Below, in pieces: positions 6,975 through 42,597 of a DNA stretch of 42,597 nt (positions are counted from its first letter, which is position 1; each line of letters begins with the position of its first letter). The notes below the pieces were generated by a model. The model saw only the letters and a list, made by a program, of their open reading frames with translations. It searched no databases and had not been told where the DNA came from. The translations under genes and the position numbers were made by a program. Origin of the DNA: Candidatus Woesearchaeota archaeon (lineage in GTDB: Archaea > Nanobdellota > Nanobdellia > Woesearchaeales > JAGVYF01). The DNA is taken from contig JACQSS010000071.1 in NCBI GenBank assembly GCA_016211195.1, positions 1 to 42,597 on the forward strand, given 5' to 3'.

Positions 6975-8417
6975 TCAGCGGAGCAGCTGCATGGCAACCT
7001 GTTCAAGGCAATGCAGCAAGGCAATCATTCCCTCAGTATCTTGCTTGCAATACATCAGCAGAGCCTTCCTCAGAGAGGGGTTTTGTTTTCTCTCTTTGTA
7101 CGTCATCTGCAAGAACTCCCGTGCTGCCTGATCGCCTTTGCTGACTTCCAAATGATTATAGCTCTTCCCCGTCAGAGCAGGAAGCACTGCCTTGATAGAG
7201 CAGCTCCCGTGCTGTGCGGGATGGTAATACCAGAAATTCCTGAAAGGGATGAGGAGGTCATCGAGCCGTTCAATAACTGATGCAAGCCATTTTTCCTCAG
7301 GATAGGTGTCAAGCAAGTCACGCAGGATGCCTTGTTCAAACATTTTGTTGTAAGCCAACACTGTGCCCGTGCTTCTGATAGCACGGAGTGTGTCAACCAC
7401 AGCACGTCGGGGGTCTTCGGGACTATCTGCAAGGAATGCAACATGGTCCGGTGTGCTGCCTGGTTGCTGGATGATGTGCAATGAGAGCTGAAACGGAACC
7501 TGTTGGTATGGATGTGTGCCATCAAAGAGCGGCACTGCGGGATTCACTGCTTCAAAGTCAAGCAGATACAGAGGATAGTGCAACCCCGCAAGGAACTCCT
7601 TTATATGGGCGGGTTCTGTGTGCGCCTGGCCAGTTTGGATGCAATCACGCTGGATACGCTGTTTCTGATTTAATAGATGGTCCGGCAAGTCGGTAATGAG
7701 AGTAGTATTCTGGTTAAGAAATGCATACGCCCGTTTGCCGAACTGGTATAATTCAGTAACATTATGGTCCGGCAGGCCTGTCATACACACAGGACAATCT
7801 TTTGGGTCAATGCATTCGGTGCCGAGCTGGGGATGAGGCATGGGACCTTGGATGATGGCCATCAGATCATTGAGATTATTTTCGACAGATGGCAACAAGG
7901 ATGTCACTTGTTCAGTGACATCTTCGCACGAGAATAATTGCTGCGGATCAATATCTCCGTGTCGCACATACTCACTGTTGACATGCATGAGGTGGCATCG
8001 CCTGATGCGGATACCTGCACCCTCAAGGCAGTAACGCTGGAATGCAACATCATGCAGATGTTCTTCTGTGACCTGCGTTGAGCTTTTCACTTCTATCAGA
8101 TCCCAGTCCCCATCCACCGGTACCAGGATATCAACACGACAGTATGCATCTCCATGGATGAAGCTGGCTTCGAAGATAGTCTTGCGCTGTACAACCAATT
8201 CCTTCGTTCTAGTGAGCGTATGATTAAAACCCTTATCCCACTCTACTTCTATGCCAAGAGGATACAGCTTCTTGGCAAATGCACCCACTTCATGTCCCTG
8301 ATCGAACAATGCCTGCGTGGCGTCATCAACTGGTGGAATCATATCTGGCGCATTATACACGCACCAGAGCTGCCGGGGACAGTGCAAACCGATGAGGTAC
8401 TTTGATTTTGAGAGCAT
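6975..8417 (-). CDS. DUF2779 protein: Cas4-like nuclease fused to DEDD-like exonuclease
   Basis: The ORF track starts at 8468, but the ATG at 8417 (MLSKSKYLIG) is preferred. DUF2779 proteins begin this way, and a minus-strand TATA box (8440-8448) sits about 27 nt upstream of it. The N-terminal half has a PD-(D/E)XK-like core: AYCRVDILVPV, then WDLIEVKSST near residue 110. A cysteine pair in the middle (CIDPKDCPVC) could help hold an iron-sulfur cluster, as in Cas4-type nucleases. The C-terminal half carries a DEDD-type exonuclease pattern: LDFEAVNP near 283, AYNKMFEQG, and YCKQDTEGM near 455. The family is thought to be nucleolytic but its biological role is unknown. No cas genes are nearby. 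Confidence 0.8.
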   Translation of the reverse strand: MLSKSKYLIGLHCPRQLWCVYNAPDMIPPVDDATQALFDQGHEVGAFAKKLYPLGIEVEWDKGFNHTLTRTKELVVQRKTIFEASFIHGDAYCRVDILVPVDGDWDLIEVKSSTQVTEEHLHDVAFQRYCLEGAGIRIRRCHLMHVNSEYVRHGDIDPQQLFSCEDVTEQVTSLLPSVENNLNDLMAIIQGPMPHPQLGTECIDPKDCPVCMTGLPDHNVTELYQFGKRAYAFLNQNTTLITDLPDHLLNQKQRIQRDCIQTGQAHTEPAHIKEFLAGLHYPLYLLDFEAVNPAVPLFDGTHPYQQVPFQLSLHIIQQPGSTPDHVAFLADSPEDPRRAVVDTLRAIRSTGTVLAYNKMFEQGILRDLLDTYPEEKWLASVIERLDDLLIPFRNFWYYHPAQHGSCSIKAVLPALTGKSYNHLEVSKGDQAAREFLQMTYKERKQNPSLRKALLMYCKQDTEGMIALLHCLEQVAMQLLR

Positions 8418-8439
8418 CAGAAAGGGAAAGACGACAACC

Positions 8440-8448
8440 AATATAAAA
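8440..8448 (-). promoter_or_regulatory. TATA box of the DUF2779 gene
   Basis: On the minus strand TTTATATTG lies about 27 nt before the chosen ATG at 8417. The MITE-like element starts only about 12 bp upstream, leaving this core promoter intact. Confidence 0.55.
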
Positions 8449-8451
8449 CAT

Positions 8452-8460
8452 ACGTGAAGC
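8452..8460. repeat. Left 9-bp target-site duplication of element A1
   Basis: ACGTGAAGC directly precedes the element and is repeated exactly at 8627-8635 directly after it. Confidence 0.85.
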
Positions 8461-8626
8461 GGCTTCATCCAAAAAATCCGCTTCGCTCTGGGTTGGCATC
8501 GGTTCGGCTCATCCTATAAACCACACAGAGTGGCACCTTCCCGTATGGAGCGACCCCTTCCGCTTGTCCATGGTACCCATTCTTTGACCTCACAAAAATG
8601 ATGCCAACCTATTTTTGGATGAAGCC
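8461..8626 (+). mobile_element. MITE-like palindromic element, copy A1
   Basis: This 166-bp non-coding element has perfect 15-bp terminal inverted repeats, GGCTTCATCCAAAAA at 8461-8475 and its reverse complement at 8612-8626. An inner inverted pair (GGTTGGCATC at 8491-8500, GATGCCAACC at 8600-8609) would extend it into a long hairpin. It is flanked by a perfect 9-bp duplication. Its first 50 bp match the inverted copy A2 at 44 of 50 positions. It carries no gene, so it would need a transposase in trans. It sits between the divergent promoters of the DUF2779 gene and manC without breaking either TATA box. Confidence 0.85.
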
Positions 8627-8635
8627 ACGTGAAGC
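8627..8635. repeat. Right 9-bp target-site duplication of element A1
   Basis: ACGTGAAGC, identical to 8452-8460. It lies just upstream of the manC TATA box. Confidence 0.85.
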
Positions 8636-8640
8636 ATCAC

Positions 8641-8648
8641 TTTTATAA
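8641..8648 (+). promoter_or_regulatory. TATA box of manC
   Basis: TTTTATAA is centred about 27 nt before the GTG/ATG pair at 8670-8675, which implies a leaderless mRNA for manC-manB. Confidence 0.6.
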
Positions 8649-13243: not shown

Positions 13244-13344
13244 CTCATACCACCTCTTTTTTTACAAAAAAACATTAATGTCTAGAGTATATATCCCATA
13301 GTATATAAACATTTATTACCATTCGAAAATGGTAATTGCATGCT

Positions 13345-13478
13345 CTTGAAAAGTCCCTTCCCACGGGTCATCGATCGGCATGGAGCTATCTCTAGTAATG
13401 ACCAAAACTCCATTGCAATTTCCTTTTTGCTTGCAAGAAAAAAAGTTGATGCTCACAGGAGTGATGAACTTTTCAGCG
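13345..13478 (+). repeat. Palindromic repeat family B, copy B1 (degenerate)
   Basis: It begins CTTGAAAAGT and ends ACTTTTCAGCG, an 8-bp inverted repeat at its core. The interior matches copies B2 and B3 (TTTCCTTTTTGCTTGCAAGA, then GATGCTCACA), but with a small deletion near the right end. It ends 2 nt before the stop codon of the minus-strand metallopeptidase-like gene. No target-site duplication is recognisable, so it is probably an old insertion. It occupies most of the 237-nt gap between 13244 and 13480. Confidence 0.65.
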
Positions 13479-13480
13479 AT

Positions 13481-15052
13481 TTACCCTGAAGAGACATAAT
13501 TATCAATAGAGTAGCGTGGCAGTTTCCATTGATGCTGCAGAATGGGCTCCTGGCCCAGCAGTCGTTTCAAGGCCAAGACATATCGTTCCGGGTACACAAT
13601 ATCCTGAAATGTCGGCGGTGCTGCAATGACATGGGACAGATGCTGTGCCCCTATTTCAGTTACCACATAATCAACAAAGATGTAACCAAGCGAATAATGA
13701 TGCGATTTTGACATGAGCAGGGACCAATCATCGCCACTCGCGAGATACTGGGCAATATCGGCCATGCAGAAAAGGCGATGCTGATGAATACGACCGAACA
13801 CGTTCTGCCGCTGCCGCAGTGCAGTGATTGCTAGGTATTCAGCGAGGCCTTCGTGAAACAGGCTTTGTTCGAGCGCCTGTTTCGAGAAGTGGCGGTCAGC
13901 AAGTTTAGGGTTAATCATATCAACATAGTGATGACCGAGTTCATGGAAGAGCACGTAGCGCTCTTCAGAGATGAGTCCAGAGCCGCGATAGTACGGCAGA
14001 AATGTAACCTGCTTTTGCTCAGGTGAATACATGCCTCTGTACCGGTCACAGAGACCCATCAACCCGCTGCCAAGATACGTGTACACCAGTGTTGCGTGGC
14101 GCAAGCCGGGTAGAGCGAGCACAGGCAGGTTTGCCTCAACAGCAGCCTGGGCTTCACTGGACAGTGCATAATGCAGGGCGCGATGACCCATTTTGATAAC
14201 AGGAAGATGACCATTTCCAAGATTATTCGCACGGTACAAGGTCTGCTGCAAACCAGTCACTTCCCGGGAAACAGCGGGTCCGAGCTGGCGACGTGCTGTG
14301 ACTAGATCACGATACCCAAACGTCGTTTCGAAAAAAAGAGCAGAGGACAGCAAGGTCGCAAGTAACCCCTTGACTGTCCCGGACAAGCATGAGATGGATT
14401 TCCGCATGAGTAATGACGAAGCACTGTCTTCAATAAGATGCCCATTCTGTCGGAGTCGCTCCCTAATAATAGCCCATTTGACACCGGACATCTGTTGCAT
14501 AGAAGCCAGTAATTCCTGTCCATCATGACATGAGGACAAGCGCACCTTTTCATCATGGTCCAGCCGGTCGCTTATATATGATCCATGAGACGGGAACTGG
14601 GTCTCGAGAAGTTGGTCCAATGGCACTGCTGCAATCGCATGACGCTCTCGTTCGTACTGAGCAAGCGCACGGCTGTTGATCACATAACGATAGGCATGGA
14701 CCCCCACCCGATTTGCCAAAAGCCCAAGGGGAACACCCATGCCAAAGCCGCAGAAGAGGAGATACTCTGCAGCTGCCACCGCAGGCAGCCAGAATGGCAA
14801 GTGGGCAAAGAACTTCTTTTCTTTTTCAACAGCGAGCATGAACCCATAACCAGCCTCGGGAGCTGGCTCCCGGAGAGGAGATGCATTATCACAGTCCTCC
14901 GGCGAGTAGCCCATTGTTTTCAGGTACGCGACAAAATCATCACGGGCAGCGACACGGCCGATTGCACGTTTCAGATATGCTCGTTCAGACTCATCCTTTG
15001 TCGGCACAATTCCAAGAGAATCATAGTAGAATAATTTCTCCAGTTGAGACAT
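13481..15052 (-). CDS. Membrane protein with HExxH metallopeptidase-like domain
   Basis: HELGHH at residues 370-375 and EGLAEYLA with E401 make a gluzincin-like zinc site (His, His, Glu). Two hydrophobic stretches near residues 88-116 and 222-242 suggest membrane anchoring. The residues just before the site (MYSPEQKQVTFLP) resemble those in the minus-strand gene at 16908-18449 (SYNPITKQIRVTP), whose HExxH is at almost the same position. The two are probably distant paralogues. No known peptidase family is certain. A minus-strand TATA box (ATTTAAAT, about 15075-15083) lies about 27 nt before the start. Substrate and cleavage activity are unknown. Confidence 0.72.
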   Translation of the reverse strand: MSQLEKLFYYDSLGIVPTKDESERAYLKRAIGRVAARDDFVAYLKTMGYSPEDCDNASPLREPAPEAGYGFMLAVEKEKKFFAHLPFWLPAVAAAEYLLFCGFGMGVPLGLLANRVGVHAYRYVINSRALAQYERERHAIAAVPLDQLLETQFPSHGSYISDRLDHDEKVRLSSCHDGQELLASMQQMSGVKWAIIRERLRQNGHLIEDSASSLLMRKSISCLSGTVKGLLATLLSSALFFETTFGYRDLVTARRQLGPAVSREVTGLQQTLYRANNLGNGHLPVIKMGHRALHYALSSEAQAAVEANLPVLALPGLRHATLVYTYLGSGLMGLCDRYRGMYSPEQKQVTFLPYYRGSGLISEERYVLFHELGHHYVDMINPKLADRHFSKQALEQSLFHEGLAEYLAITALRQRQNVFGRIHQHRLFCMADIAQYLASGDDWSLLMSKSHHYSLGYIFVDYVVTEIGAQHLSHVIAAPPTFQDIVYPERYVLALKRLLGQEPILQHQWKLPRYSIDNYVSSG

Positions 15053-15102
15053 CAGAGCATGGACTCAAGGGCAGCATTTAAATGAGACCCATATAGTATA
15101 TA

Positions 15103-15789
15103 TCACTCGTGGGTAACGTGCCGCGATGAACCACCCGTCTTGCATGCCCCCACAAGAACGCATGCCTCACAAAGAGGCTTTTTCCTGCATGACTGCTTGG
15201 CGTGCTCAACGAGTAATGCATGGTATTCGTTGAATAGTGCTGCATCTGCCGGGAGATTGTGATGAAAGAACTGTTGCCACTCATCGTATGAAGCGGATTC
15301 ATGCAGATAGCCCAATCGCGAAAAGATACGGCGGGTATAGGCATCAATGATAAAAGTAGGTTTATCGACCGCATAGAGCAGAATAGAATCTGCTGTCTCG
15401 GGACCAACCCCGTTCAATGCGAGCAGCATCTGGCGCAAGGTAGCGACATCATACAACAGGAGGTCTGTCTTAAGAAAGAAGCGTGCCATGGTTTTCAGCC
15501 GTGCTGCTTTCTGGTTGAAATACCCCGCAGGCCTGATGAGTTCGGGCAGGTTCTTCGCAGCCAATATTCTTCGTGGTCGAAGCATTTGCTTTCTGTTGAG
15601 TGCAATCAGCGCTTTCTCAACATTTGTCCATGCCGTATTCTGAGTCAGAATCGCACCAACAGCGATTTCAAACTGGTGCTCTGGTGAGCGACGCGCACCA
15701 TATTTTGGCGCCTCTTCACCCGCGGGCGTGACAGGCCACCAGCCTTGAGAGCCATAGGCGGATAGGAGACGATGATAAATGGAGAGCAT
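15103..15789 (-). CDS. Endonuclease III-like DNA glycosylase (HhH-GPD, Fe-S)
   Basis: This is a base-excision-repair glycosylase of the endonuclease III superfamily. The helix-hairpin-helix LNGVGPETAD spans residues 125-134, and the catalytic Asp is D149 in FIIDAYTRR. The residue that is the catalytic lysine in true endonuclease III is Glu131 here, as in the COG2231/MagIII-type branch. A monofunctional glycosylase without lyase activity is therefore more likely than Nth. A C-terminal four-cysteine cluster, C201-x5-C207-x2-C210-x5-C216, would hold a [4Fe-4S] cluster. Helix AILTQNTAW (47-55) is also typical. A TATA box (AATTTATACC) lies about 27 nt upstream. The substrate may be an alkylated or mispaired base. 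Confidence 0.87.
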   Translation of the reverse strand: MLSIYHRLLSAYGSQGWWPVTPAGEEAPKYGARRSPEHQFEIAVGAILTQNTAWTNVEKALIALNRKQMLRPRRILAAKNLPELIRPAGYFNQKAARLKTMARFFLKTDLLLYDVATLRQMLLALNGVGPETADSILLYAVDKPTFIIDAYTRRIFSRLGYLHESASYDEWQQFFHHNLPADAALFNEYHALLVEHAKQSCRKKPLCEACVLVGACKTGGSSRHVTHE

Positions 15790-15827
15790 ACTCTTGGGAA
15801 GAGAACGCTGGTATAAATTACTGCGGC

Positions 15828-16553
15828 TTATTTCGCAATCTTCACAAGAGTAACTGGCTCATCACCGGGCGTGTAATAGACATTATCCCCTACAACGAGT
15901 TTTAGGGAATTTGTCAAATAGCGGAACTCGTCACCTGTTCTGCTGTTGCGCAGTGTGCCCCGCAAACCATCACGCGAAGAAATGACTGTCTTAACACGTG
16001 CCAGTTCTGTGCCTGCCGGCTGTGATGTATCTTCTGTTGCAGTCTCATTCTTCTGAAGGCGTGGATCGGCTTCCTTGGCAATAATCTTCGCTGCATCGTT
16101 GCTCAAAGTAAATGTTACTATGTCGCCGCGAATGATCTCAACAGAAGTCGTGAATGGATAATGTTTATACGTTTCCATGTCAGTCAGTTCGCCTGTGTAA
16201 ACGCCATTTTTTATAGGATTAAGAGTTGTGATGCGACCTTTGTAGACACGTGGGGGAGCTTCTTTGACTACTTGTTCCACACGTTGTACCGGCTCTGCCA
16301 CTTTTTCTTCAACAGGTTGCTTTTCTTCAACGGGAATTCCCTCTACGGGTTTTTCAGCAGGCTTCTCCTCTGGCGCGTCAATCACTTTCTCAGTCGGCAT
16401 CTCCAGTTTCTCCACAATCTTCTCAACCTGTTGCTCTTCAACAGGCTCCTGCACAACAACTTCCTCAATTTGAGTTTCCTCAGTGACGTCTTCAGCAGTG
16501 CAACCGACAAGGGCAACAAGCACAACAATGAATGAGAGAATGGATTTGTTCAT
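15828..16553 (-). CDS. Lipoprotein with Glu/Pro-rich stalk
   Basis: The leader MNKSILSFIVVLVALVGC ends in a lipobox (LVGC), so the mature protein is likely lipid-anchored outside the cell. Residues 20-100 form a low-complexity Glu/Val/Pro/Lys stalk (EEKPAEKPVE and variants). The C-terminal 130 residues are a compact, beta-rich domain I do not recognise (VYKGRITTLNPIKNGVYTG and onward). The gene has a clear minus-strand TATA box (GCTTTATATAG, about 16573-16583) and probably a short leader. The A2 element is inserted just upstream of this promoter. A structural envelope role is inference only. Confidence 0.75.
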   Translation of the reverse strand: MNKSILSFIVVLVALVGCTAEDVTEETQIEEVVVQEPVEEQQVEKIVEKLEMPTEKVIDAPEEKPAEKPVEGIPVEEKQPVEEKVAEPVQRVEQVVKEAPPRVYKGRITTLNPIKNGVYTGELTDMETYKHYPFTTSVEIIRGDIVTFTLSNDAAKIIAKEADPRLQKNETATEDTSQPAGTELARVKTVISSRDGLRGTLRNSRTGDEFRYLTNSLKLVVGDNVYYTPGDEPVTLVKIAK

Positions 16554-16572
16554 GCCCTTTTTTTAGGTTTTC

Positions 16573-16583
16573 AACTATATAAA
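16573..16583 (-). promoter_or_regulatory. TATA box of the stalked lipoprotein gene
   Basis: The minus-strand GCTTTATATAG is centred about 25 nt before the ATG at 16553. The mobile element A2 begins 16 bp upstream. Confidence 0.6.
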
Positions 16584-16589
16584 GCCATC

Positions 16590-16598
16590 TTTTTACAC
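16590..16598. repeat. Left 9-bp target-site duplication of element A2
   Basis: TTTTTACAC directly precedes A2 and is repeated exactly at 16811-16819. Confidence 0.85.
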
Positions 16599-16810
16599 GG
16601 CTCCATCCTGAAGTAGGTTGGCATCTTTTTTGTGATGCTCTAAAAAGGAGGGAAACAAAGCGGAAGGGGATAGCTGTTAGCGAGCGCAGCGAAGCTAACC
16701 ACCGAAGACGCAGCCTGACTGTGCCTACGGGAGGGACCCGCTTCACGCAAACACAACAACGAGCCGAACCGATACCAACCCGAAGCGGAGCGGAGTTTTT
16801 GGATGGAGCC
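16599..16810 (-). mobile_element. MITE-like palindromic element, copy A2
   Basis: This 212-bp element has 10-bp terminal inverted repeats, GGCTCCATCC and GGATGGAGCC. An inner pair follows: GGTTGGCATC at 16616-16625 and GATACCAACC at 16771-16780. It lies in the opposite orientation to A1. The two share their ends and interior blocks (CGGTTCGGCTC, CCCCTTCCGCTT, a CACAAAAA run), while the middle of A2 holds about 46 bp more. A perfect 9-bp duplication flanks it. It contains no credible ORF and takes up most of the 354-nt gap between the lipoprotein and metallopeptidase-like genes. Confidence 0.85.
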
Positions 16811-16819
16811 TTTTTACAC
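16811..16819. repeat. Right 9-bp target-site duplication of element A2
   Basis: TTTTTACAC, identical to 16590-16598. Confidence 0.85.
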
Positions 16820-16882
16820 TTTATTCTCCAACAGCGGACGGTATTATTTATTGATTGGTTTTATTCCCGATTGAGTTTAATG

Positions 16883-16903
16883 CCCCGTAGCTCTGCTGCG
16901 GGG
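16883..16903 (-). terminator. GC-rich hairpin after the metallopeptidase-like gene
   Basis: CCCCGTAGC-tct-GCTGCGGGG forms a 9-bp stem with one wobble pair and a 3-nt loop. It lies 4 nt past the stop codon of the 16908-18449 gene. No U-tract follows on the minus strand, so it is a weak intrinsic terminator. It could instead be an mRNA 3'-end stabiliser or a REP-like palindrome. Confidence 0.45.
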
Positions 16904-16907
16904 TAGT

Positions 16908-18449
16908 TCACTGGTAGTCTTTCACAGGACGATAAACTGCCGGGACAGTAAGCGCATCAAAATTGTTGTGCAGCACGTCGTCATATATCTTTTGTCCATG
17001 CTCGTGTTCAGCAATCCGGAACACTGCAATCCCTTTAGCATGGCCGTCTGCAGCGAGCTGTTCATACATCGCTTTCGTCACTGCATCAACGTCGTGCTCC
17101 CCAAGGAGCGTTGCATCCGGAGCTACAGCATATTTCATGCACAGTGTGTAATAAACAGACTTAAGCTCCACAAGTTCCCGCTGGACAGGCCCACGCAGCC
17201 ATGCATCATCTTTTGTCTTATTGGCAAGATCTTGTGCGCACATACGTTCAATAGCACGGGCATGGCCCTCCTGCAGCAGACTATTCGTAGGCCAGTTCAT
17301 TCTGTCCTGATAGTAATGGGTGTTTTCATGAGCCAGTACAATGGCAAGGTCTTCCTTTGTCCGGCCAACATCAAGGATACTTGATGGTGTCACTCGTATC
17401 TGCTTTGTTATGGGATTATAAGAGTTGGATTGACCGACGACGAATTGCATGCCGACACTGAGACAGACCACGACACCAAGCAGATTTACCTGAGCCAGCA
17501 GGACATGTCCAAGGTATGCAGTGCCGTGATAGAGCGACCGGCAACCGCCTTCAACGCGTTCAACCAAGCCTACACGACGATGGTCGACTGCATCATAGAG
17601 ACTCCGACCCATATTGTAGAAGCTTATTCCCGCATACCGGAATCGCTTTTGCCAGCCGGCACCGAAGATGAGCATGCCGAGCCCGAGAAAACCCAGTACA
17701 TCAAAGAATATAGGTTCCTGGGCGATGCTCCCGTACCCAAACTGCGTTCGGGGCAGAGGCTCGCTTCTCTTAAGGATTGTGTCAAGCGTCGGCTTGACCT
17801 CCGCTTGATAGTAGTCAAGAAATTGAGACTCGACAACGTAGTCCTTCCCAGAGACTGAAGGAAGACGAGAGAGGAGGTCTTTATCATCCCGGATTCGCTG
17901 TGCGATGATGGGGATAGACTCTTTACGGTAGAGAAGCGGCTCGAACTCCTTATCCAGCACTTGCTGTTTTTGTATCCGGTCAAGCTCATGCTTATATTTC
18001 TCTTGAAATGCTTTGGCATCATAAGAAGCCTTGACATGCAGCGCACTGCCGAGGGCAATAAGGATGCTCCATTTGGCAACAAAGCGCCGGGTCCATGTAC
18101 GCCGGCGCTGAGCCCAAGTCGTTCCTTCCTCTGCAGTCATCATGGATCCAGCGATACTGCCCGGCGCTTGCCCACATGCATAAGGAAGCGCACGCAAGGC
18201 GGTTTCCGCCATACCGACCATAAAGCCAAGTTCTATTCCTTCAGGACCGAGAAAAAGACCCCCGATTGCACTGTACAGCAAGGGGTTGGTAACAAACGTC
18301 ACTACCGTCGCTGTGCGCGGGTTATAAGACACACCAAATCGCTTCACGAGATTGTCCTTGCAGCCCTCAGGAAAGTTCCCAGAAATAGGATAACTGGCTT
18401 TGGCAAGAGCATGACCCCATGCATTCCGTAGTCTGGATTCAAGACTCAC
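16908..18449 (-). CDS. Membrane protein with HENTH metallopeptidase-like domain
   Basis: HENTH at residues 374-378 and Glu394 in LLQEGHARAIE give a gluzincin-like His-His-Glu zinc site. Hydrophobic segments near 52-80, 125-140, 248-265 and 315-340 suggest a multi-pass membrane protein. The stretch before the active site and its position (about 374 of 513) parallel the other HExxH membrane protein in this window, so I infer a shared origin. A minus-strand TATA-like ACATTTAAG (about 18474-18482) precedes the start. Known membrane gluzincins include CAAX proteases and HtpX/Ste24, but the overall pattern here matches neither clearly. Confidence 0.7.
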   Translation of the reverse strand: MSLESRLRNAWGHALAKASYPISGNFPEGCKDNLVKRFGVSYNPRTATVVTFVTNPLLYSAIGGLFLGPEGIELGFMVGMAETALRALPYACGQAPGSIAGSMMTAEEGTTWAQRRRTWTRRFVAKWSILIALGSALHVKASYDAKAFQEKYKHELDRIQKQQVLDKEFEPLLYRKESIPIIAQRIRDDKDLLSRLPSVSGKDYVVESQFLDYYQAEVKPTLDTILKRSEPLPRTQFGYGSIAQEPIFFDVLGFLGLGMLIFGAGWQKRFRYAGISFYNMGRSLYDAVDHRRVGLVERVEGGCRSLYHGTAYLGHVLLAQVNLLGVVVCLSVGMQFVVGQSNSYNPITKQIRVTPSSILDVGRTKEDLAIVLAHENTHYYQDRMNWPTNSLLQEGHARAIERMCAQDLANKTKDDAWLRGPVQRELVELKSVYYTLCMKYAVAPDATLLGEHDVDAVTKAMYEQLAADGHAKGIAVFRIAEHEHGQKIYDDVLHNNFDALTVPAVYRPVKDYQ

Positions 18450-18510
18450 GACCCGTGTTAGTCTTGCAGATTCTTAAATGTTTAGCAACTGCTGGCGCAG
18501 GCTCATGACC

Positions 18511-18664
18511 CATTGAAAAGTTCCTTCGCTGTCGCTTCGTGGCCATCGGTTCGCATGGAACTTCCCATAGTAAAGGCAAAAATTCTTCTTGCAATCCCCT
18601 TTTTGCTTGCTCGAGTAACGAGCCAATGTTCACAGAATTGATGGCCAACGTGACCTTTTCAATG
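18511..18664 (+). repeat. Palindromic repeat family B, copy B2
   Basis: This 154-bp element starts CATTGAAAAG and ends CTTTTCAATG, a perfect 10-bp inverted repeat. An inner pair, GTGGCCATC and GATGGCCAAC, lies about 22 bp in from each end. Its right half matches B3 closely (GGCAAAAATTC, AATCCCCTTTTTGCTTGC, GATGGCCA). Its left half shares TGGCCATCGGTTCG with family A (TTGGCATCGGTTCG), so A and B look related. It sits between the divergent promoters of the metallopeptidase-like gene and the small membrane protein gene. No exact target-site duplication is visible. Confidence 0.72.
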
Positions 18665-18684
18665 GCGCCCAGGCCCAGATATGT

Positions 18685-18693
18685 TTTTATAGT
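18685..18693 (+). promoter_or_regulatory. TATA box of the small four-helix membrane protein gene
   Basis: TTTTTATAG is centred about 26 nt before the ATG at 18714, about 20 bp after the end of element B2. Confidence 0.5.
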
Positions 18694-40295: not shown

Positions 40296-40948
40296 TGCCA
40301 ACCTATCGTGGTATTCAGCAGGTGCATGTGAAAAATTCAAAAGTAGATATAGAGCTGCCAAAACGACAATTCTGGGCAGAGAGAACAGCGACCCTTGAAG
40401 ACATAGCACGGCAGGAAGCGACAGCACTTTTTGTTGAAAATTATAGAGGAAAAATCCTGCTCGGTGCACGGACTGACTTGTATGTGACTGACCACTCCAG
40501 TATTACTGGGATGCATCCCGGTGGCAATCTAAAGATAGATGCCACAAGCGATGCGGACTTGAAACAACCACGACAGCTGCATCCAGCCATGGAATACGTA
40601 GCAGGATATCTCGGCGATGCCGGCAGGATGGCAGCCCTCATGTTGCCCGCTGCAGCACTTGCTGCTGCAGGAGAGACCATTCTGGGAATCAACGCCATGC
40701 AGCATCTGGAATGGATTCCGTTAATGGCAGCAGGCATGTATCTCGGGACGAATGGAGGTGTCCCCCGCGCCGCTTCTGCAAGTATTGCTGTCTATCTCGC
40801 CATCACTTTTGGTCCAGACCTCGTGCATATCACACAGGCTGGTCTCCAGCACTTCGGATGGCACACCCTGCTCAAGACTGGTGGCTATCTTGGCTCCAAC
40901 CTGCTTGGATATGGAATCAGGAAGTGGCATGAAAGCATCACCGAATGA
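40295..40948 (+). CDS. Unrecognised protein, middle gene of operon
   Basis: The 217-residue protein has a basic, soluble N-terminal half (VHVKNSKVDIELPKRQFWAE, then LFVENYRGKILLGA). The C-terminal half has three or four Ala/Gly-rich hydrophobic segments (MAALMLPAAALAAAG, LMAAGMYLG, IAVYLAITFG). It starts on the stop of the preceding gene and its own stop overlaps the next start by 4 nt. That spacing indicates a fixed stoichiometry or complex. The N-terminal half, with short alternating strands, may be a small beta domain. No function is suggested by motif. Confidence 0.65.
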   Translation: MPTYRGIQQVHVKNSKVDIELPKRQFWAERTATLEDIARQEATALFVENYRGKILLGARTDLYVTDHSSITGMHPGGNLKIDATSDADLKQPRQLHPAMEYVAGYLGDAGRMAALMLPAAALAAAGETILGINAMQHLEWIPLMAAGMYLGTNGGVPRAASASIAVYLAITFGPDLVHITQAGLQHFGWHTLLKTGGYLGSNLLGYGIRKWHESITE

Positions 40949-42507
40949 CACTAACAGCGAAAGTTGCAGAGTTGTACACAGATATCAGCGGCCTTGTCTA
41001 TTTTCCTGAGTTCCTCATGAAGGTGAGCGATGTCCTTATCAATCGCTCGTTCCGGAGAACAACAGCATTCGCCACACTTTTTTTTGGCGCAGCTTTTTTT
41101 GGAGATGTCAGCAATAAGGAATGGATAACCTACAAACAAGCTGCCGGATACACCATTGCGGTTCTCGCCGGGTCTTTAGGACTGGGTTATCTCTCAAAGT
41201 TTCTAGCCGGATACAAAGTAATGGGAAATCTCCAGACTGCGGAAGCCAATGCATTTGAACTGCTGGAAGAGAAAAAAAAATCACGGGCTATCGCTCATCT
41301 CGATGAACTTTGGGAACGTGTCTATAGTTATGACGCAGAGATGAAATACACAGAGAAGGAGCAACTTGAGGAAAAGGTCCTCATCAAAGAAAAATGGCCC
41401 CTCCTGCAAGCCCAGACAAGTTGCCTCACTGGGATTTTGCTGCCTGACGATGCATCTACTACAGAGGTTATCCGGAATCTGGGAAGAACGAAAGACGGAT
41501 TCGTCATTTCCATGCTCTATGGCTTACAGCAGAATATCCCTCTCGTGGAAAAAAAAGAGCTAATAGGTTTTGAAATTGGGAAACTAGTTGGATGGTATAA
41601 CAGCTCGTACTTTGATACACGCAACAATGCAATCAGCGACCACTATCGGGCATCGCGGACAATTTTGAAAATCAAACGCAGCATTGGCTGGAAAAACAAG
41701 CACCAGGAGATTGTCGCTTCCTACATACGGGATTTCTGGCTACGGCGCATTGCCCACACACTTGCTATCAGAGTCGGAGCAGGAATCACAACATTGGAAG
41801 CACAGCATGGCCGCCAGTACCTCAATGCGCAGCATTTCCTCTGGCCGACAAAAAAGACAGATGAGCTGCTGGTTCAGGAATTCGGTGTCGAGAAGCTCAA
41901 ACAGCTTGACGAGTATCGTAGATCAATGCTTTTGCAGATGTTCCACAGCGAGAGGATAGCAGAAAGAATTTTGAGCAGGGCATATGGTCCCAATGTTGAA
42001 CTGACAACACTTCTGCGGGCAGATTATGATCATGAATATATCTTGCAGGAACTACGACAGACTCCCCAGGGAGACTATGCACGGGCTGGACTTGCCTTTC
42101 CGGCGAAAATAAAGCAAAGACAGGAACAAGCTGCAGCGGACAAAAGAGTACTCGATGAATTCATCACAGAATATTGGCCAGCTGCACAGCAGGACAAAGA
42201 AGCTTACCGGGCAGTGCGCATCGCATACCATGTCAATATCGACGGAGTGGGACGCTCGATCAAGCGCCGACGCTGGAAACGTGATCACCACCAGATTCTT
42301 TCGGCCCTTGCCAACGTCGCACAAGAGAAAAAGCAGTATACAGAAAGAATTATCAATCTACGTAAACATCATACGCTGGCGCTCATTGAATTATTGGACT
42401 GCGGGCAGGAAATCAATGGCCTGATGACGTACCGGTCACCATTGTATGAGGAAACTAATGCGCCAGTCTCACTCCCCAGGTGCCCGGTCTCATTGAAAAG
42501 TTCATGA
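40945..42507 (+). CDS. Unrecognised protein, last gene of operon, C-terminus from a repeat
   Basis: The 520-residue protein has two hydrophobic segments near residues 34-50 and 65-90 (FATLFFGAAFFG and YTIAVLAGSLGLGYL). A long, charged, helical soluble region follows (LLEEKKKSRAIAHLDELWER, RILKIKRSIG-like segments, RQEQAAADKRVLDEF). I do not recognise a family or active site. The last five residues (SLKSS) and the stop codon come from the palindromic repeat B3, which begins at 42491. The original C-terminus may have been replaced by the insertion. It is translationally coupled to the two genes upstream. Confidence 0.68.
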   Translation: MTLTAKVAELYTDISGLVYFPEFLMKVSDVLINRSFRRTTAFATLFFGAAFFGDVSNKEWITYKQAAGYTIAVLAGSLGLGYLSKFLAGYKVMGNLQTAEANAFELLEEKKKSRAIAHLDELWERVYSYDAEMKYTEKEQLEEKVLIKEKWPLLQAQTSCLTGILLPDDASTTEVIRNLGRTKDGFVISMLYGLQQNIPLVEKKELIGFEIGKLVGWYNSSYFDTRNNAISDHYRASRTILKIKRSIGWKNKHQEIVASYIRDFWLRRIAHTLAIRVGAGITTLEAQHGRQYLNAQHFLWPTKKTDELLVQEFGVEKLKQLDEYRRSMLLQMFHSERIAERILSRAYGPNVELTTLLRADYDHEYILQELRQTPQGDYARAGLAFPAKIKQRQEQAAADKRVLDEFITEYWPAAQQDKEAYRAVRIAYHVNIDGVGRSIKRRRWKRDHHQILSALANVAQEKKQYTERIINLRKHHTLALIELLDCGQEINGLMTYRSPLYEETNAPVSLPRCPVSLKSS

Positions 42508-42597
42508 TGGCCATCAATTATGTGAGCATTGGCTTCCTTCTCTTGCAAGCAAAAAGGGGATTCCAAGAGGAATTTTTGCCATTAACAGGCAAAAGCA
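42491..42597 (-). repeat. Palindromic repeat family B, copy B3 (cut by window end)
   Basis: Reading the minus strand, the sequence GGCAAAAATTCCTCTTG, AATCCCCTTTTTGCTTGC, CCAATGCTCACATAATTG and GATGGCCATC, ending CTTTTCAATG, matches B2 in order and spacing. The element's right end lies at 42491. The left end lies beyond the window. It covers the end of the third unknown operon gene and supplies its stop codon. Confidence 0.72.

Follow-up and report, generated by a model that had tools for sequence, protein, structure and literature searches.

What are the short palindromic repeats scattered along a contig of a Candidatus Woesearchaeota archaeon, and why do they lie where they do? The window, i.e. 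the whole 42,597-nt stretch analysed here (contig C60, JACQSS010000071.1), belongs to a metagenome-assembled genome (GCA_016211195.1) of 1.11 Mb in 76 contigs, 91% complete, and carries repeats of two families, A and B. Both families are non-autonomous DNA transposons, namely miniature inverted-repeat transposable elements (MITEs), and their copies recur at a fixed distance from sequences resembling archaeal core promoters. We consider it highly likely that insertion sequences (ISs) of the IS5 family and their MITEs integrate directly upstream of core promoters in archaea; what directs them there is probably the promoter itself or TBP and TFB bound to it.

The transposon nature of A and B was established from their ends and flanks. 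Elements are mostly 160-212 bp long (166 bp for A, 212 bp for its variant A' and 164 bp for B) and have no coding capacity, and intact copies are bounded by terminal inverted repeats (TIRs), GGCTTCATCCAAAAA in A and GGTCCCATTGAAAAGTTC in B. Over the whole genome the TIR pattern of A retrieved 91 sites and that of B 75, compared to one and two, respectively, with reversed-pattern controls. Each family gave at least 40 genome-wide matches, mostly 90-99% identical for A and down to E 4e-22 for B, which corresponds to about 50-64 sites with A-type and about 50 with B-type elements. When left and right flanks were compared, A copies agreed over 9 bp (identity 0.71) and B copies over 8 bp (0.64), versus about 0.26 for shuffled flanks; every other length within 6-12 bp was at background. 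The duplication matched at 8 or more of 9 positions in 17/28 A copies, and at 7 or more of 8 in 17/36 B copies. Such fixed-length flank repeats are target site duplications and, together with TIRs and a short, non-coding, high-copy sequence, they identify A and B as MITEs. The first-pass annotation of this DNA had overlooked the duplications, and with them the transposons, as well as the fixed target and the IS5-type partner described below. It had correctly seen that copies share their ends; B, however, is 164 bp at full length and ends about 5 bp past CATTGAAAAG, the end then assigned to it (GGTCCCATTGAAAAG). The elements of the window and their immediate surroundings are as follows.

8461..8626, plus strand: MITE A1 of family A, 166 bp, TIRs GGCTTCATCCAAAAA/TTTTTGGATGAAGCC
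8452..8460, unstranded: left 9-bp target duplication of A1, ACGTGAAGC, from flank comparison
8627..8635, unstranded: right 9-bp target duplication of A1, ACGTGAAGC, from flank comparison
8641..8648, plus strand: TATA-like box TTTTATAA to the right of A1, before the gene starting at GTG 8670
16599..16810, minus strand: MITE A', the 212-bp variant of family A
16590..16598, unstranded: promoter-proximal copy of the 9-bp target duplication of A', TTTTTACAC; second copy at 16811-16819
16575..16583, minus strand: TATA-like box TTTATATAG near A', before the minus-strand gene starting at ATG 16553
18506..18669, plus strand: MITE B2 of family B, 164 bp, with TIRs and a duplication
18498..18505, unstranded: left 8-bp target duplication of B2, CAGGCTCA
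18670..18677, unstranded: right 8-bp target duplication of B2, CAGGCCCA
18684..18691, plus strand: TATA-like box, 6 nt past the B2 duplication; the gene starts at ATG 18714, 36 nt past the duplication
13345..13475, plus strand: B1, a degenerate family B copy (nhmmer match 13345-13467, 39 bits, E 1.5e-10)
42486..42597, minus strand: MITE B3, cut by the contig end and overlapping the 3' end of the upstream open reading frame (ORF) 40945-42507

The 9-bp duplications are exact for both A1 and A'. A second TATA-like box, to the left of A1, belongs to a divergent gene.

Archaeal promoters consist of a B recognition element (BRE) and a TATA box, bound by TFB and TBP; transcription starts about 25 nt downstream and many messages are leaderless. 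Past the duplication, one flank of the elements usually reads RAAANN-TTTAWAWA, an archaeal BRE followed by a TATA box lying about 6 nt out. In unselected flanks position information is found mainly at offsets 1-3 (BRE) and 6-13 (TATA); within the duplication there is almost none, and its sequence shows no clear consensus. TATA-bearing flanks give the consensus RAAANNTTTAWAWA, again an archaeal BRE plus TATA, with an A at offset 3, in the BRE part, in 97% of those of family A. A strict TATA pattern is present at offset 4-7 in 17/22 elements of family A (p 9e-27), in 15/30 of family B (p 3e-19) and, in the same bin, in 9/12 curated foreign autonomous ISs (p 3e-8). The comparison level is about 1.6% per 4-nt bin at 12-67 nt for A and B, and 1.6-8% per bin further out when the foreign ISs are included. 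Counting ORFs that read away from the element and have at least 50 codons or are open to the contig end, we found an ORF start 20-54 nt out in 41 of the 46 TATA-bearing flanks, with a mode of 36 nt, which fits a leaderless gene start. Family A points its left end toward the promoter in 13 cases and its right end in 3; B has no orientation bias (7 versus 10).

On the distal side of the elements, the nearest long ORF lies 10 to several hundred bp away in 18/30 elements and runs into the element in the remaining 12/30, so that the position is kept even where this costs the upstream gene its end. Neither shortage of space nor selection for gene-free DNA therefore explains the fixed offset. A and B are often found side by side, 8-9 bp apart, because both families use the same slot. 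In the five such cases with a visible promoter (L003, L006, L015, L029 and L036), it is the TATA-adjacent element that has the better-preserved duplication, and the same stacked arrangement was seen at locus L065 of G001, a genome of the same genus. The 8-bp spacing had prompted us to consider a direct insertion preference of A for B ends; this idea was dropped, the shared distance to TATA being sufficient. In G001 the ortholog of the gene behind A1 (65% identity) is free of the element, and its TATA box lies about equally far from the gene start, as expected if the promoter preceded the element.

G001 also provided the autonomous partner of family A. This element (L116:1091-2273, 1,183 bp) carries the TIR of A and a perfect 9-bp duplication, TACAGCTTT, and its left flank, duplication-gaaaac-CTTAAAAGC, occupies the same slot beside a TATA box. 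It encodes a 315-aa DDE transposase (PF01609, 5.7e-17) whose best model is the IS5 model NF033579 (6e-25), at 88 bits, below the 140-bit cut-off; a related protein, L117, scores 145 bits, above it. With a DDE_Tnp_1 transposase, short length, TIRs and a fixed-length duplication, the partner of A has the features of an IS5 element, and duplications in other IS5-type ISs are 8-10 bp long. Relatives with A's TIR were found in G051, G039, G200, G143, G219, G274 and G077, with TATA at offset 6 in 11/22 available ends, a sample that is mostly one-sided because taken at contig ends. More distant IS5-type elements have matches in 119 of 371 genomes across the phylum. An automatic scan placed a TATA-like box at offset 4-9 in 10/12 ISs with exact 8-10 bp duplications, and one further IS with an 8-bp duplication (L145) has such a box likewise. 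Multi-copy A-type IS5 elements, cut at contig ends in several genera (G143, G200, G219 and G077; L153-L172), are a sign of recent activity in uncultured archaea. As for family B, 8-bp duplications occur in the IS5-type elements L145, L209, L212 and L217, which makes a close relative the likeliest source of its transposase, and B is most likely moved by an IS5 relative. The only widely spaced pair of B ends in the genome (C72:12372/13357) turned out to be a truncated B and a chance match around ordinary genes. B-type ends in other genomes belonging to the order led only to MITEs or chance matches.

On this basis, we propose the following course of events. IS5-family DDE transposases would move A and B in trans, the transposase being that of the partner found for A and probably that of a relative for B. 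The transposition complex would integrate at one preferred place, immediately upstream of the core promoter, through staggered cuts that abut the BRE and span 9 bp for A and 8 bp for B; its guide would be either the BRE/TATA sequence or TBP/TFB bound there. The resulting order would be [element]-[duplication]-RAAANN-TTTAWAWA-(~22 nt)-start codon, leaving the downstream promoter intact. Successive insertions would then stack, the newer element entering between the older one and the TATA box and pushing the older one away; a slot upstream of the BRE explains this stacking order. The boxes are presumably working promoters, and TBP and TFB may guide integration.

Several observations weigh against this proposal. 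The window genome contains no PF01609 match, and neither there nor in 288 genomes of the order did the exact TIR pattern reveal an autonomous B partner with an 8-bp duplication. About half of the B copies are without a strict TATA at 4-7 nt; in many such cases the copy is old, abuts an A element or is followed by a weaker box. B1 has neither a recognisable duplication nor a TATA box at the usual offset. The promoters are predictions from sequence. Finally, no match to TBP (PF00352) or TFIIB (PF00382) was found in the 91%-complete assembly; TBP is present in three relatives, and the absence is probably an assembly gap. The TBP of these relatives and the leaderless BRE/TATA organisation of the genes are what mark the genome as archaeal. 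The assembly is affected by the elements themselves: near-identical A copies break it, so that many element sites fall at contig ends. Contigs C7, C10, C15, C21, C23, C25, C35, C38, C39, C43, C45, C53, C64 and C67, for example, begin or end inside an A copy. The fragmentation of this assembly has the MITE burst as one of its main causes; the copy numbers given above are consequently minima, and an autonomous partner may have been lost at the breaks.

The same distribution might have arisen if insertion were random and selection retained only the copies lying just upstream of promoters, other positions being damaging to genes. The genome is compact, and insertions in intergenic DNA upstream of genes are as a rule those best tolerated. 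Selection of this kind would not, however, be expected to fix the offset within a few nucleotides, with the 12-67 nt range of that side nearly empty. Space is not limiting in the 18/30 elements with room, a long ORF from the distal side is hit in the other 12/30, and ISs of many other genera share the offset. We regard random insertion followed by selection as very unlikely. A far more serious competitor is a variant of integration upstream of core promoters that differs in the guiding step alone: the transposase may read the sequence or bendability of the AT-rich TATA-like motif directly, with no role for TBP or TFB, promoters being hit as carriers of the motif. The target does have a sequence signature, RAAANNTTTAWAWA, and many ISs prefer AT-rich flanks. 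The motif, however, includes the BRE part, is usually one-sided and is followed about 36 nt on by an ORF start, properties that are compatible with direct reading too. We give direct reading a substantial chance, although a clearly smaller one than an even bet.

The first-pass annotation had proposed that B is homologous to A, with internal blocks in the same order and spacing, and our alignments bear this out. After removal of the TIRs, the A and B consensus sequences aligned on the same strand with a score of 18.0, compared to a shuffled mean of 10.5 (standard deviation 1.9), and 5 of 1000 shuffles reached this score; the opposite strand gave nothing. A and A' are plainly related (36.0 versus 11.4 shuffled). 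A, A', B and relatives from G001 and from G054 and G245, which represent other families of the order, could be brought into one end-to-end alignment with a single architecture, in line with the single diversified palindromic superfamily suggested earlier. The common layout comprises, in this order, a TIR, a CGCTTCGCTC-like segment, a sub-terminal arm, a GGTTCG/GGCTCGC block, a central TTCCCC...CCCCTT hairpin, a CTCACA block, the second arm and the other TIR. That A and B are unrelated MITEs, alike solely through end motifs typical of their transposon group, is improbable: their duplication lengths differ, their TIRs differ in part and their pairwise interior similarity is modest, as the 5/1000 shuffles indicate, yet the blocks keep their order and spacing, on the same strand only, and intermediates in G001, G054 and G245 align over the full length. 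From these alignments, the blocks common to A and B appear to reflect common descent.

It had also been suggested that the conserved blocks hint at an RNA structure or an internal protein site. Within family B this found no support: in 26 clean copies none of the 31 predicted pairs changed on both sides, the covariation term was unfavourable, and the tested region folded no better than shuffles. With degenerate copies included, the B alignment deteriorated and RNAalifold predicted hardly any structure from it. The central regions of B and A fold no better, or only slightly better, than shuffles, and the central hairpins of some foreign copies beat them (L182, z -3.3; L175, z -2.3). Between families the outcome was different, and this part of the suggestion holds. 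The arms of the sub-terminal stem are TGGCCATC/GATGGCCA in B, GGTTGGCATC/GATGCCAACC in A, TGGTCATC/GATGACCA in G001 and GGTGCCGCC/GGCGGCACC in G245, and take three forms in G054, GCAATGCC/GGCATTGC, GCAACGCC/GGCGTTGC and GCAGCGCC/GGCGCTGC. From one family or genus to another, both arms differ in sequence yet still pair, and the stem score is 17.1 for own arms versus 11.3 for arms mixed between groups. The inverted-repeat symmetry is therefore maintained; it may be kept via RNA, a DNA hairpin or cruciform, the symmetry of protein binding, or mutational template switching from arm to arm. The complementary arms and the well-folding foreign hairpins could be taken to mean that the elements are conserved genes for structured RNAs and not mobile DNA alone. 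Their exact target duplications, however, are the mark of transposition; Rfam has no match for the elements, no covariation exists inside B, the central regions of B and A are at or barely above shuffle level, and template switching can also create covariation between palindrome arms. The RNA gene reading, very unlikely in our view, was dropped for want of an Rfam match and of covariation in B.

Few elements are known to insert upstream of promoters at a fixed distance; some DDE elements of bacteria and retrotransposons of yeast do so. The bacterial Mutator-like elements of the TnGBS, ISLre2 and ISKra4 group insert 15-17 bp upstream of sigma-A promoters (PMC3942029). They resemble the present elements in their fixed promoter distance, the element end here lying about 14-16 bp from TATA, with 8-9 bp duplications. 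They differ in having a p-MULT (Mutator/IS256-like) transposase instead of the IS5-type PF01609, and in using bacterial sigma-A promoters instead of archaeal BRE/TATA. Fixed-distance promoter insertion is thus common to our elements and p-MULT, and an IS256-like transposase is not: the proteins match PF01609 and IS5 models, with no IS256-type among the matches listed. For archaeal ISH6 a promoter preference has been voiced as speculation only (PMC3942029). Yeast Ty3 integrates at RNA polymerase III (Pol III) genes bound by TBP and Brf1, with proven direct contact (PMC8632968). It likewise takes a fixed place beside the promoter and keeps the gene intact, and archaeal TBP/TFB are homologous to TBP and Brf1/TFIIB; Ty3, however, is a retrotransposon with an integrase that goes to Pol III genes, near the transcription start, whereas contact with the factors is inferred for the present elements. 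Known IS5-family ISs (NF033579) share the transposase domain, GG...CC-ended TIRs, a length of about 0.9-1.2 kb and 8-9 bp duplications, and the open-access literature searched yielded no account of insertion by this family at a fixed place next to BRE/TATA. The Sulfolobus MITEs SM3A and SMN1 (164-320 bp, with TIRs) are described in the parts of PMC3718332 available to us as short, non-autonomous elements, SM3A being mobilised in trans by a resident IS, ISC1058; those parts mention no promoter targeting and report far fewer copies. The accessible portion of a MITE review (PMC10969869) likewise makes no mention of TATA targeting, and a literature search that left subscription journals uncovered brought up no case of an archaeal IS that targets promoters. 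What is ordinary in these results is the pairing of MITEs with an IS5-type partner; the combination of an archaeal BRE/TATA-fixed target with an IS5-type transposase is new as far as the open-access literature shows.

An archaeal BRE/TATA version of this insertion mode would make insertion sites natural core-promoter markers in uncultured archaea and would provide a transposon whose insertions fall safely outside genes, on their upstream side. It would also allow a direct test of general transcription factors as transposase docking sites where TBP/TFB are simplest. It also means that one repeat has taken the place of the DNA next to as many as about 100 promoters of this genome, on their upstream side, with possible effects on regulation and on the insulation between genes. 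In its widest form, to which we give a little less than an even chance, the hypothesis is that a phylum-wide archaeal IS5 clade and its MITEs dock on the TBP/TFB-bound core promoter as a counterpart of Ty3/TFIIIB, independently of the bacterial Mutator-like elements that target sigma-A promoters, with elements upstream of several per cent or more of this genome's promoters.

A few additional features were noted. Genome G141 harbours a recent pair of 165-bp B-type MITEs, L178 and L179, which are 97.6% identical, have perfect 8-bp duplications and lie without a clear TATA box at the usual offset. The single pattern match in a collection of genome contigs, L075 (Bacteroidota), was a chance match. 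In the 5' part of the transposase coding sequence of the G001 element (L116:1165-1200) there is a small inverted repeat, GAATCGGTT-CGT-AACCGAATTC, whose ATCGGTTCG also occurs in the conserved block of MITEs A and B. A short palindrome, TTACCATTCGAAAATGGTAA, at window 13316-13337 separates B1 from a farther TATA box, which precedes a minus-strand gene for a mechanosensitive-channel-like protein. Adjoining A1, window 6975-8468 encodes a protein with a DUF2779 and Cas4-like nuclease match; the start of its longest ORF falls inside A1, and the true start is probably near 8416.

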